DNA from: Bryobacteraceae bacterium
GTDB lineage: Bacteria; Acidobacteriota; Terriglobia; Bryobacterales; Bryobacteraceae
Assembly (NCBI GenBank): GCA_019748195.1
Contig: JAIEPW010000029.1
Span: 1-64,000, forward strand
Direction of reading: 5' to 3'
DNA length: 64,000 nt
The notes beneath the pieces are model-generated. The model had not been told where the DNA came from and did no database searches. It was given only the letters and a program-made list of their open reading frames with translations. A program made the translations under genes and the position numbers. Numbering within the stretch: the first letter of the stretch is position 1; the number at the start of each line of letters is the position of its first letter. Shown here one piece after another: positions 802 to 3,770 of this stretch.

Positions 802-2214
802 ATGCGTTCTGTTGCCGTTTTACTTCTCGCCTTTTCCGTGTTCGCCGATGACCGCGCCGATGTCCTGAAGAGCATGGACACCCAGAGCGATCGATGGGGC
901 AAGATTTCCCGTCAGATTTGGGAGTTCGCCGAAGTCGGCTATAAAGAGGTGAGAAGCTCGAACCTCCTCAAGGCGGAACTCAAGGAAGCCGGGTTCCGCA
1001 TCCAGGACAACGTCGGCGCCATCCCCACCGCGTTCACCGCCACCTGGGGGGAAGGGAAGCCGGTGATCGGCATCATGGGCGAATACGACGCCCTGCCGGG
1101 CCTCTCGCAGAAGGACCAGCCGTCCAAGGAAGCGCTGAACCCCGGCGCCGCCGGGCACGGCTGCGGGCATAACCTGTTCGGCGCGGCATCCGCCTGGGCG
1201 GCGATTTCGGTCAAGGATTGGATGGCCGCCAACAAGATCAAAGGCACTATCCGGTTCTACGGAACTCCCGCGGAGGAGGGCGGTGGCGGCAAGATCTACA
1301 TGGCGCGCGCCGGAGCTTTCAGCGACGCCGATGTCGTGCTTGCCTGGCATCCCGGGTCCTCCAACGGCGCCAGCCTCGGCTCCTCGCTCGCCAACATCAA
1401 CGCCAAATTCCGTTTCCACGGGATCGCCGCGCATGCCGCCGGGAATCCGGACAAGGGCCGGTCCTCGCTCGATGCGCTGCTCCTGACGGCCCATTGCGTC
1501 GACATGATGCGCGAGCATGTGCCGCAGGAAACCCGCATCCACTACGTTTTCACCAAGGGTGGCGAGGCTCCCAACGTCGTGCCCGACTTCGCCGAAGGTT
1601 ACTTCTACGCGCGGTCCCCCTCCATGCCCGTGCTCGATCAGGTGTGGGAGCGGATCAACAAGTGCGCCCAGGCGGGCGCCCTCGGAACCGAAACCAGGCT
1701 CGAAAGCGAACTCGTCAACAGCGTCTATAACCTGCTTCCCAACGAACCCCTTACCCGGCTCCTCGATTCCAAGCTGCGCATTGTGGGCGGCTTGAAATAC
1801 AGCCCGGAAGAGCGGCAGTTCGCCGAAACTTTGGTCAAAACCTTCCCGCCCTCGACGCTGACCCTCGGAAGCGAGGAGCAGGTGCAGCCGGTCCGGGAGG
1901 AAACCGGAGGCGGCTCCACCGATGTCGCCGATGTCAGTTGGGTGGTGCCGACCGCGCAGTTCTCCACCGCGACATTCGTCCCCGGCACGCCCGGACACTC
2001 CTGGCAATCCACCGCCTGCGCCGGATCCTCGATCGGCCGGAAAGGCATGGTGAACGCCGCAAAGGTCCTGACCCTTGCCACCATGGACCTGTATCAGAAA
2101 CCGGATGTCATCACGGCGGCGAAGTCGGACTTCGACAAGCGACGTGCCGGCAACGCGTATAAGAGCCGGGTTCCCGCCGATCGCAAACCGCCGCTCACTT
2201 ATCGTGACAAATAG
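802..2214 (+). CDS. M20-family amidohydrolase, AbgB-like, secreted
   Basis: This 470-residue zinc amidohydrolase belongs to the peptidase M20 family and most resembles AbgB, the p-aminobenzoyl-glutamate utilization subunit. Visible family landmarks are GIMGEYDALPG (about residue 90), the metal-site stretch GHGCGHNLFG (about 118-127), GTPAEEGGGG (about 154) and a late histidine in PGHSWQ. An N-terminal signal peptide (residues 1-16, ending FADD) suggests export to the periplasm, which is unusual for AbgB itself. The likely reaction is hydrolysis of an N-acyl or aryl amide bond; the substrate cannot be told from sequence. It is transcribed alone, diverging from the membrane protein upstream. 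Confidence 0.8.
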   Translation: MRSVAVLLLAFSVFADDRADVLKSMDTQSDRWGKISRQIWEFAEVGYKEVRSSNLLKAELKEAGFRIQDNVGAIPTAFTATWGEGKPVIGIMGEYDALPGLSQKDQPSKEALNPGAAGHGCGHNLFGAASAWAAISVKDWMAANKIKGTIRFYGTPAEEGGGGKIYMARAGAFSDADVVLAWHPGSSNGASLGSSLANINAKFRFHGIAAHAAGNPDKGRSSLDALLLTAHCVDMMREHVPQETRIHYVFTKGGEAPNVVPDFAEGYFYARSPSMPVLDQVWERINKCAQAGALGTETRLESELVNSVYNLLPNEPLTRLLDSKLRIVGGLKYSPEERQFAETLVKTFPPSTLTLGSEEQVQPVREETGGGSTDVADVSWVVPTAQFSTATFVPGTPGHSWQSTACAGSSIGRKGMVNAAKVLTLATMDLYQKPDVITAAKSDFDKRRAGNAYKSRVPADRKPPLTYRDK

Positions 2215-2724
2215 TCAAAGCGGATCCACCATCCTCAAATCCACCGCGCCGCCCTGGCGGGCATGGGGGCAGGATCGCGCGATCTCGTCCGCCTGCTGCC
2301 TGCTGCGGGCGCGGATCACGAAGTAACCGCTCACCGCCTCCGGGTCGGCTTCCGGCTTCAATTTGACCCCGCTGACCAGCAGCCCCTGCGATCGCAGGTC
2401 GCCGGCCCAGCGGCGGTGCTCTTCCACCGAGCCGGCGGGCCCGGAGCCGTACAGGAACAACACGTAGCGATCGCCGGTTTCGGGCGCGCGTCCGCCCGCG
2501 GATCCCGCCCAGAACCCCGCCAGGAACGACGCAGCGAAAAATGCCGCTACCTTCAACCAACGCCAACCCGAGCGCGACGAGCGAATCAGGCCCGCCGAAC
2601 GCAGCTCCGCGATCGTTCGCGATTCCAATTCCGGGTTCGGTGTCTCCGCCTGTTTCATCCGGGCAAGTTCCGCCGCCAGTTCGGGAGGATCTAGCGGATC
2701 GTTGAGCTCGTCTGGCCGATCCAT
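2215..2724 (-). CDS. membrane-anchored YCII-domain protein, putative anti-sigma partner
   Basis: This 169-residue protein starts inside the end of the sigma-factor gene (34-base overlap), the usual position of an anti-sigma factor. Residues 1-50 are acidic and helical. A single membrane segment lies at about 57-76 (LKVAAFFAASFLAGFWAG). The C-terminal half (about 85-169) looks like a YCII/DGPF domain: it opens with RYVLFLYGSG and has the late strand SGYFVIRARS followed by a CPHARQGGAVDLR segment. YCII domains are known beside ECF42-type sigma genes, but as separate soluble proteins. Here the domain sits behind a membrane anchor. No zinc-binding anti-sigma motif (HxxxCxxC) is visible. The role as sigma regulator is inferred from gene position. 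Confidence 0.65.
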   Translation of the reverse strand: MDRPDELNDPLDPPELAAELARMKQAETPNPELESRTIAELRSAGLIRSSRSGWRWLKVAAFFAASFLAGFWAGSAGGRAPETGDRYVLFLYGSGPAGSVEEHRRWAGDLRSQGLLVSGVKLKPEADPEAVSGYFVIRARSRQQADEIARSCPHARQGGAVDLRMVDPL

Positions 2725-3221
2725 GACTTCAATTGCCTCCTTGCGCGGGATAGCTGGCTCTTCGAAGTGCCGGCCTCGATGCCCAGCATCTCCCCGATCT
2801 CGTTGTGCGTGTAGCCTTCCACGTCGTGCAGCACCAGCACCATGCGGAATCCCGGCGCCAGCCGCTCGATTGCCGAGCTCACATCCAGATTGCGATCGGC
2901 CCTGGGCGCCGGCGGGTCCTGCGTCAGTTCAGCCTCGCGCGCCGCATCCCGGTGCCTTTCGCGCGCGCATCGCACCAGAATTCCGGCCAGCCATGTCCGC
3001 AGCGCCGATTCCCAGCGGAACGCTCCAAGCGCACGGCAGGCTCGCAGCCAGGTCTCCTGCACCAAATCCTCGGCGGCGGAGCCGTCACCCCCGCTGAGCC
3101 TTCGCGCCATCCCCAGCAGCGCCGGAGTGTGACGCCGGTAAAGCGAACGGAACGCCGCTTCCGAGCGCGAGCTCAGGTACTCCGCCGCCAGCCGGCTGTC
3201 GTATTCGTTCTCGTCGCGCAT
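2691..3221 (-). CDS. ECF-family RNA polymerase sigma factor
   Basis: This 176-residue extracytoplasmic-function sigma factor has region 2 at about 18-88, including EDLVQETWLRACRAL and the helix FRWESALRTWLAGIL. Region 4 is at about 118-165, with YTHNEIGEMLGIEAGTSKSQ as its helix-turn-helix. I chose the ATG at 3221 (protein begins MRDENEYD). An upstream ATG would add an unrelated 60-residue extension running through the start of the divergent VOC gene. The downstream gene overlaps its 3' end by 34 bases, so the two are translationally coupled. No extra C-terminal domain of the ECF41 or ECF42 type is present. Confidence 0.88.
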   Translation of the reverse strand: MRDENEYDSRLAAEYLSSRSEAAFRSLYRRHTPALLGMARRLSGGDGSAAEDLVQETWLRACRALGAFRWESALRTWLAGILVRCARERHRDAAREAELTQDPPAPRADRNLDVSSAIERLAPGFRMVLVLHDVEGYTHNEIGEMLGIEAGTSKSQLSRARRQLKSWIGQTSSTIR

Positions 3222-3341
3222 CTCGGCCTGAACGTGAGTGTCGGGCGCCGGGCAAACGGTTGCATCAGGAAAAGCGCCCCGCCCCTGCAACCAACCACCC
3301 GCCGCGGCGCACTCAGCAATGACCTCCAAGGAGACTACACC

Positions 3342-3770
3342 ATGCGTTTCACGATTGCTTCCGTCGTCCTGCTCGCCTGCTCCGCCTCGCTGCCCGCGCA
3401 AGAACTGAAGTGGAAAAACACCTTGCTCATCCAGCTTCAGGTCTCCGACCTGGAGCGCTCGGTCCGCTTCTACACCGAGGTGCTTGGCTTCCGCGTGTCG
3501 GAACGTCGCGACGACTTAGGTTTCGTCCACATCGAAACCGGCATCTCCGGCCTGCAGCTCGGCTTGGCCACGGGCCGGCCGCCCGCGCCCGGATCGAGCA
3601 TTCTGAACTTCGGTGTCTCCGGCGATATCGAAAAAGCTCGCAAACTGCTCGAATCGAGAGGAGTCGCGTTCCTGGGGCCGACGCAGACCATCCCCGGCAA
3701 GGTAAGCCTCGCCTCCTTCCGCGATCCCGACGGCTACACCATCCGGCTCGCGGGCGACCCCGCGAAATGA
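3342..3770 (+). CDS. secreted VOC (glyoxalase/bleomycin-resistance) fold protein
   Basis: This 142-residue protein carries one vicinal-oxygen-chelate module. LLIQLQVSDLERSVRFYTEV gives the first beta-alpha-beta unit, and SLASFRDPDGYTIRLAG is the classic closing strand with its glutamate position replaced. A clear signal peptide (1-20, ending LPAQ) directs it to the periplasm, which is uncommon because most VOC proteins are cytosolic. The start at 3342 is preceded by AAGGAG. It diverges from the sigma-factor gene and may be one of its targets, but that is only inference. The substrate is unknown. Confidence 0.75.
   Translation: MRFTIASVVLLACSASLPAQELKWKNTLLIQLQVSDLERSVRFYTEVLGFRVSERRDDLGFVHIETGISGLQLGLATGRPPAPGSSILNFGVSGDIEKARKLLESRGVAFLGPTQTIPGKVSLASFRDPDGYTIRLAGDPAK

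Follow-up and report, generated by a model that had tools for sequence, protein, structure and literature searches.

Does the YCII domain serve as the outer sensor of a membrane-bound anti-sigma factor? The question is raised by a locus in a soil-type Bryobacteraceae bacterium (contig JAIEPW010000029.1; the window, that is, the whole stretch of DNA analysed, is its first 64,000 nucleotides), in which the gene of an ECF sigma factor runs into the gene of a YCII protein with a predicted membrane anchor. YCII is otherwise known mainly in soluble form, and the YCII neighbour of ECF42 sigma factors is likewise soluble. The ECF42 literature describes YCII proteins as gene neighbours with only a suggested regulatory role and mentions YCII fused to other ECFs (PMC8999054). 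Among the titles and abstract openings listed from the open-access literature, which misses many relevant papers, none described a membrane-bound YCII anti-sigma factor. ECF42 with its YCII neighbours is thus known already, and what we propose as new is a membrane-bound YCII in the anti-sigma position.

An ECF sigma factor gene overlaps the gene of a membrane-anchored YCII protein

The sigma factor carries Pfam regions 2 (PF04542, 60 bits) and 4 (PF08281, 50.6 bits) and ends just past region 4 (Table 1). An earlier note on this DNA had remarked that the ECF lacks the C-terminal extension of ECF42, and the 176-residue protein indeed has nothing after region 4, unlike ECF42, in which about 200 residues follow. 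Among the 25 NCBIfam matches listed, the general superfamily model TIGR02937 alone was above cut-off.

Table 1. Features of the locus, in window coordinates.
Feature	Position	Strand	Details
Membrane-anchored YCII protein, proposed anti-sigma factor	2215..2724	-	169 aa; ATG at 2724, stop ending at 2215
YCII domain, predicted extracytoplasmic, residues 84-169	2218..2475	-	PF03795; fold match
Predicted transmembrane helix, N-terminus inside, residues 53-75	2500..2568	-	AlphaFold2 helix; hydropathy; K/R count
Two-helix cytoplasmic segment, proposed sigma-binding part, residues 13-43	2596..2688	-	AlphaFold2 helices 13-26, 31-43; conserved motif; profile match to zinc-finger anti-sigma domains
ECF sigma factor gene	2691..3221	-	176 aa; ATG at 3221, stop ending at 2691
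Proposed ECF promoter GCAACC-N17-CACTCA	3235..3263	-	exact match, 13 nt before ECF start codon
Second promoter copy, opposite direction	3287..3315	+	exact match, 26 nt before VOC gene
VOC (glyoxalase-fold) protein, proposed target	3342..3770	+	142 aa; PF00903, 58.2 bits; signal-like N-terminus by eye

The ECF and YCII genes share 34 nt, and the YCII protein matches PF03795 at residues 100-159 with 28 bits against a curated cut-off of 24 (E 3e-6); together with the predicted helix, these results bear out the earlier description of a YCII domain fused behind a transmembrane helix in an overlapping gene. In the AlphaFold2 model (mean pLDDT 82), the two helices of the N-terminal segment and the long helix at residues 53-75 precede a YCII-type fold at about residues 84-169. 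The closest solved folds are PA1349 (1s7i; Z 11.6, 88 residues aligned, rmsd 2.7) and HI0828 (1mwq; Z 10.0, 85 residues, rmsd 2.9). No anti-sigma structure was among the 50 fold matches listed, which cover residues 78-169 and barely include the cytoplasmic part. On the other side of the locus, an M20 amidohydrolase gene (802-2214, plus strand) abuts the stop of the YCII gene tail-to-tail with zero spacing.

The most hydrophobic 19 residues before the YCII domain lie at 59-77 and have a modest mean hydropathy of 1.48; the same measure is 1.52-2.31 in 13 homologues, six of which have a second hydrophobic stretch further on (1.19-1.55). Lysine and arginine number four before the helix and two after it, and an excess on the N-terminal side is found in 13 of 14 proteins, with a tie in L019. 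From this charge bias and the hydropathy, a simple calculation, we predict that the N-terminus lies inside and the YCII domain outside the cytoplasm. The anchor in the position of an anti-sigma factor, as the earlier note had it, stands; the part that would hold the sigma factor is a short N-terminal segment rather than YCII, since the predicted topology places YCII outside.

The cytoplasmic part has the conserved motif L..L....PP..LE.RVV.ALR..GLI. It lacks cysteine in all 14 proteins, and thus the Hx3Cx2C motif of class I anti-sigma factors; instead of the class I three-helix bundle and helix 4, the model of the window protein has two helices in about 50 residues. Four YCII residues (Pro153, His154, Trp106 and Glu102) are the same in all 14 proteins, which suggests that the domain has kept a function. 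The window YCII is short and is without a loop found in most relatives.

The pair is patchily conserved across Acidobacteriota

At E 0.001, no full-length match to the YCII protein turned up in the 60 nearest other genomes. They gave two YCII-only matches, both to soluble YCII genes next to long, ECF42-like ECF genes. Profile searches reached further. Across 250 genomes of the order, clear full-length matches occurred in at least two, the window's own and G565, and the remaining matches listed start at profile position 36 or beyond. Across 396 genomes of the phylum, at least 13 (the window's included) had a near-full-profile match at E 8.2e-51 or better, and 14 further rows listed start at position 26 or beyond. 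Both counts are lower bounds, as up to 13 (order) and 8 (phylum) candidates were scored per genome.

In total, we found 14 membrane-YCII proteins, 13 in the phylum search and one more in the order search. An ECF gene lies directly upstream in every case (14/14), in L082 as a fragment ending at the contig start. The two genes overlap in 12 pairs and are separated by gaps of 2 and about 55 nt in the other two, with start codons partly chosen by hand, and PF03795 matched all 13 members scanned. The same pair, which the earlier note had suggested seeking in other genomes, is thus conserved, though patchily. In a contig collection, the window protein alone found no match, and a plasmid collection searched with the L012 homologue gave none either; a profile scan of the contig collection found five loci, namely four Acidobacteriota records and one Gemmatimonadota contig (L135). 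The latter (L135:966-1423) has the same ECF, with an anti-sigma start and a YCII in different frames and no visible transmembrane stretch.

Partner ECFs form one clade in which the outer domain is exchanged

Our sigma factor tree has 43 ECFs, of which 15 are partners (13 pairs, the fragment L082 and the Gemmatimonadota L135), 22 come from the window's genome and 6 are others. All 15 partners fell into a single clade, with support 100/100, against the 28 other ECFs. The window's genome has 62 ECF-profile matches in all; 30 loci were fetched, including the window ECF itself (L158), and seven were left out of the tree because they had no or a weak profile match or were too short.

A partner-ECF profile run over the 396 phylum genomes returned 15 matches at 228-270 bits, after which the score dropped to 178. 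Thirteen of these, all paired with a membrane YCII, had themselves gone into the profile. In the other two (L179 and L180), the downstream gene keeps the cytoplasmic and transmembrane part and carries an outer part that is not YCII. Their cytoplasmic-profile matches (E 3.3e-11 and 2.6e-8) were surpassed among 2060 ORFs solely by a second copy of the G280 pair. The L179 protein also matched the NCBI anti-sigma model NF052375 at E 1.8e-6; the L180 protein did not match it at E 0.1. A different outer domain on the same cytoplasmic and transmembrane part fits an anti-sigma factor that swaps its sensors. The tree that included L179 and L180 kept 2 of 16 outgroup rows after the motif filter. An expected kinship of their outer domain with that of zinc-finger anti-sigma factors found no support in HHalign (probability 1.2%).

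Among the next-scoring ECF loci (L181-L195), 11 of 15 partners have, by eye, an Hx3C-type zinc motif and a transmembrane stretch; two lack the zinc motif and two were left without a call. Three of the four outgroup partners scanned were above the zf-HC2 cut-off.

The cytoplasmic segment resembles the end of zinc-finger anti-sigma domains

When compared with the anti-sigma domains of 12 outgroup-ECF partners, the cytoplasmic profile aligns to their final stretch with a score of 25.9; the best of 100 column shuffles scored 15.6. Against zinc-finger anti-sigma domains, HHalign gave the cytoplasmic part a probability of 36% by itself and of 93% with the transmembrane helix and two more rows, a value that the helix may inflate. 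The window protein matches NF052375 at E 0.0019 with 18 bits, below the cut-off of 100; six of 13 members match this model, at best at E 1.1e-5 and below the curated cut-off, and the other seven have no match to it among those listed at E up to 10. As far as sequence goes, the earlier idea of a new anti-sigma variant, drawn from gene position, thereby gains support from a conserved clade pair, a weak similarity to anti-sigma domains and the exchange of the outer domain.

Like the membrane-bound class I zinc-finger anti-sigma factors beside L181, L182 and L194, the YCII protein is encoded directly behind the ECF and has a predicted cytoplasmic N-terminus, one transmembrane helix and an outer C-terminal domain, and the end of their anti-sigma domain can be aligned with its cytoplasmic part. 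It differs from them in lacking Hx3Cx2C, in having about 50 rather than about 100 cytoplasmic residues and in carrying YCII where theirs is a helical-looking outer domain. Its short cytoplasmic part with two predicted helices resembles that of the class II factor CnrY; the sensor of CnrY, however, is a separate protein, whereas here it would be fused. According to a published account, helix 1 of class I anti-sigma domains contacts sigma4 and helix 4 contacts sigma2, and the two helices of CnrY bind sigma4 and sigma2 (PMC7406223). By analogy, the two predicted helices would fit a minimal clamp with contacts of the class I or CnrY kind.

A second type of putative anti-sigma factor also carries a YCII domain

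In G077 and G091, the gene behind another ECF, one outside the clade, encodes a protein that combines a class I-type anti-sigma domain, a transmembrane stretch (by eye) and a YCII (L105:740-2142 and L106:1489-2894). These two proteins match NF052375 at E 3.4e-11 and 8.1e-13 (44 and 49 bits, where the cut-off is 100) and the outer-part profile at E 6.6e-15 and 1.3e-13; the Pfam YCII match is below cut-off in one, and there is none among those listed at E 0.1 in the other. They too would be transmembrane anti-sigma factors with an outer YCII, but their ECF falls outside the clade and their class I-type domain is longer. Among the neighbouring genes are one for a DoxX-like protein just under the Pfam cut-off in L105 and one for a NIPSNAP protein with a signal-like start in L106.

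In a tree of YCII domains, a branch with support 98/97 parted 14 of 15 fused YCIIs, both second-type YCIIs and the signal-bearing YCII of G280 from the soluble ones. The exception is the fused L013, which sits on a long branch among soluble YCIIs. The second type and this tree support a repeated use of YCII as an outer sensor. The window's genome also has two more ECF and YCII pairs with a long, ECF42-looking ECF (G000:C125:6622-7456 and G000:C153:114783-115660).

A promoter-like element faces both the ECF and the VOC gene

We spotted the element GCAACC-N17-CACTCA by eye in the upstream sequences of partner loci and then searched for it, so the argument rests on the genome-wide counts and the controls. 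The window's 5.83-Mb genome has three exact sites, two of them within the 120-bp ECF/VOC intergenic region, one facing each gene. We therefore rejected a chance origin for these two, and took as chance the third exact site (G000:C145, in L216 near an ssb-like gene) and a coding-region site in G086:C15. When 3222-3341 was shuffled to first order, two of 2000 sequences had one site at up to one mismatch, and in a second set none of 2000 had two. At up to two mismatches, the window-wide count of 3 against 5.3 expected is uninformative, and only exact sites count.

Over 17 genomes, exact sites numbered 21 against 11 for the reversed control, and nine of the 21 lie at the ECF locus; a 15-position pattern allowed up to one mismatch gave 12 sites against 3, ten of the 12 at the ECF locus. 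Among partner ECF loci, 11 of 17 have a site at up to one mismatch and three (L068, L070 and L076) only at two; L072 has none, and L082 and L135 end near the ECF at contig ends. None of 21 outgroup ECF loci has a site at up to one mismatch, and among the 30 ECF loci of the window's genome the window locus is the only one that does. Textbook ECF promoter motifs, sought as regular expressions, gave no match. From these sequence patterns, we propose GCAACC-N17-CACTCA as the probable promoter of this ECF clade.

Candidate targets are small, mostly secreted proteins

The genes next to the partner ECFs encode small proteins, most of which, judged by eye, begin with a signal-like segment (L013 has no evident one). 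In 8 of 14 pairs the neighbour encodes a beta-barrel protein that is similar in fold to nitrobindin and the spirocyclase OssO (Z about 15) and has no Pfam match above cut-off; the flanks of L009 and L082 end at contig ends. The barrel family (L016:2596-3129 and homologues) is ten-stranded and has HYC, Q and HM residues that do not vary; its structural neighbours include the anti-sigma factor RsfG (7qh3; Z 11.6, rmsd 2.9, 117 residues). We had considered L013 as a VOC domain fused to a barrel protein, which Pfam did not confirm. Eight barrel genes on other contigs (G000:C140 of the window's genome and seven more) have no nearby site at up to two mismatches, which means that this promoter does not serve the whole barrel family.

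A second small-protein family is found at the ECF in G126, G297 and the Gemmatimonadota contig. Members of this family include L219:835-1521, L010:180-935 and L135:1-423; the L219 protein has no Pfam or NCBIfam match. The gene next to the ECF of G280 encodes a YCII protein of its own with a signal-like start, in keeping with a YCII outside the cytoplasm, and in the window the neighbour is the VOC gene. In G091, the sole 15-position-pattern site precedes a homologue of the second family at a distance of about 11 kb from the ECF, which supports a regulon that extends beyond the operon.

Discussion

Our computations establish the gene pairing, the domain make-up, a predicted topology, a single ECF clade, the exchange of the outer domain and a shared promoter-like element. 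In our reading, the YCII protein is very probably an anti-sigma factor: a signal from outside, acting on YCII, would set the sigma factor free to switch on its own operon and a secreted protein. From the computed features we infer sigma binding and inhibition, a signal, a release step (proteolytic or conformational) and the use of the element for transcription. The cytoplasmic N-terminal segment of about 50 residues, with two predicted helices at residues 13-43 and no zinc motif, would hold the sigma factor at the membrane; one helix would span the membrane, and YCII would face the outside of the cytoplasm as the sensor. The signal, in the simplest case a small molecule that YCII binds or modifies, would release the sigma factor, and this would then transcribe its own operon and the divergent secreted VOC gene from the GCAACC-N17-CACTCA promoters. 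In relatives, the targets would be other small, mostly secreted proteins.

Other roles for the YCII protein are conceivable. It could be a membrane-anchored effector, an enzyme or binding protein that belongs to the sigma factor's operon and inhibits nothing: the neighbours of the YCII fold include the enzymes TftG and ClcF, and the other genes here encode small, mostly secreted proteins, to which it could add one more output. We consider this improbable, because the cytoplasmic segment is conserved, even in proteins with another outer domain, although a mere anchor could do without it, and because we saw by eye no other anti-sigma candidate beside the ECF in the ORF lists of twelve pairs. Still less credible, to the point of being very improbable, is a derivation from ECF42 and its YCII, with YCII acting directly on the sigma factor and later tethered to the membrane. 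The kinship would have a basis in the ECF42 neighbourhoods described in PMC8999054 and in the two ECF42-looking pairs of the same genome, and here, as there, an ECF gene lies next to a YCII gene. But the partner ECF has no C-terminal extension, zinc-finger anti-sigma factors accompany most of the ECFs that follow in profile score, the window YCII sits behind a predicted transmembrane helix and, by predicted topology, outside the cytoplasm, and a well-supported branch (98/97) separates 14 of 15 fused YCIIs from the soluble ones.

A further alternative concerns the outer domain alone: the protein could be an anti-sigma factor that works without sensing through YCII, the domain being a structural remnant. 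The short window YCII, without the loop of most relatives and with no ligand known, would agree with this, but the four residues invariant in 14 of 14 proteins suggest a kept function, and we hold the remnant unlikely.

A broader conjecture, which we offer tentatively and with somewhat less than even confidence, is that YCII is an exchangeable outer sensor of transmembrane anti-sigma factors in at least two unrelated ECF/anti-sigma types of Acidobacteriota, set in a self-amplifying circuit whose outputs, secreted ligand-binding folds (VOC, a nitrobindin-like barrel and a secreted YCII), may act on the same kind of molecule that YCII detects. Because it comes with its own sigma factor and a short promoter, a membrane-spanning YCII placed as a sensor would open the question of YCII sensing to a simple reporter. 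The promoter element would offer a means to list the regulon in uncultured bacteria, and the exchange of the outer domain may illustrate how a single anti-sigma module can take on different sensors.
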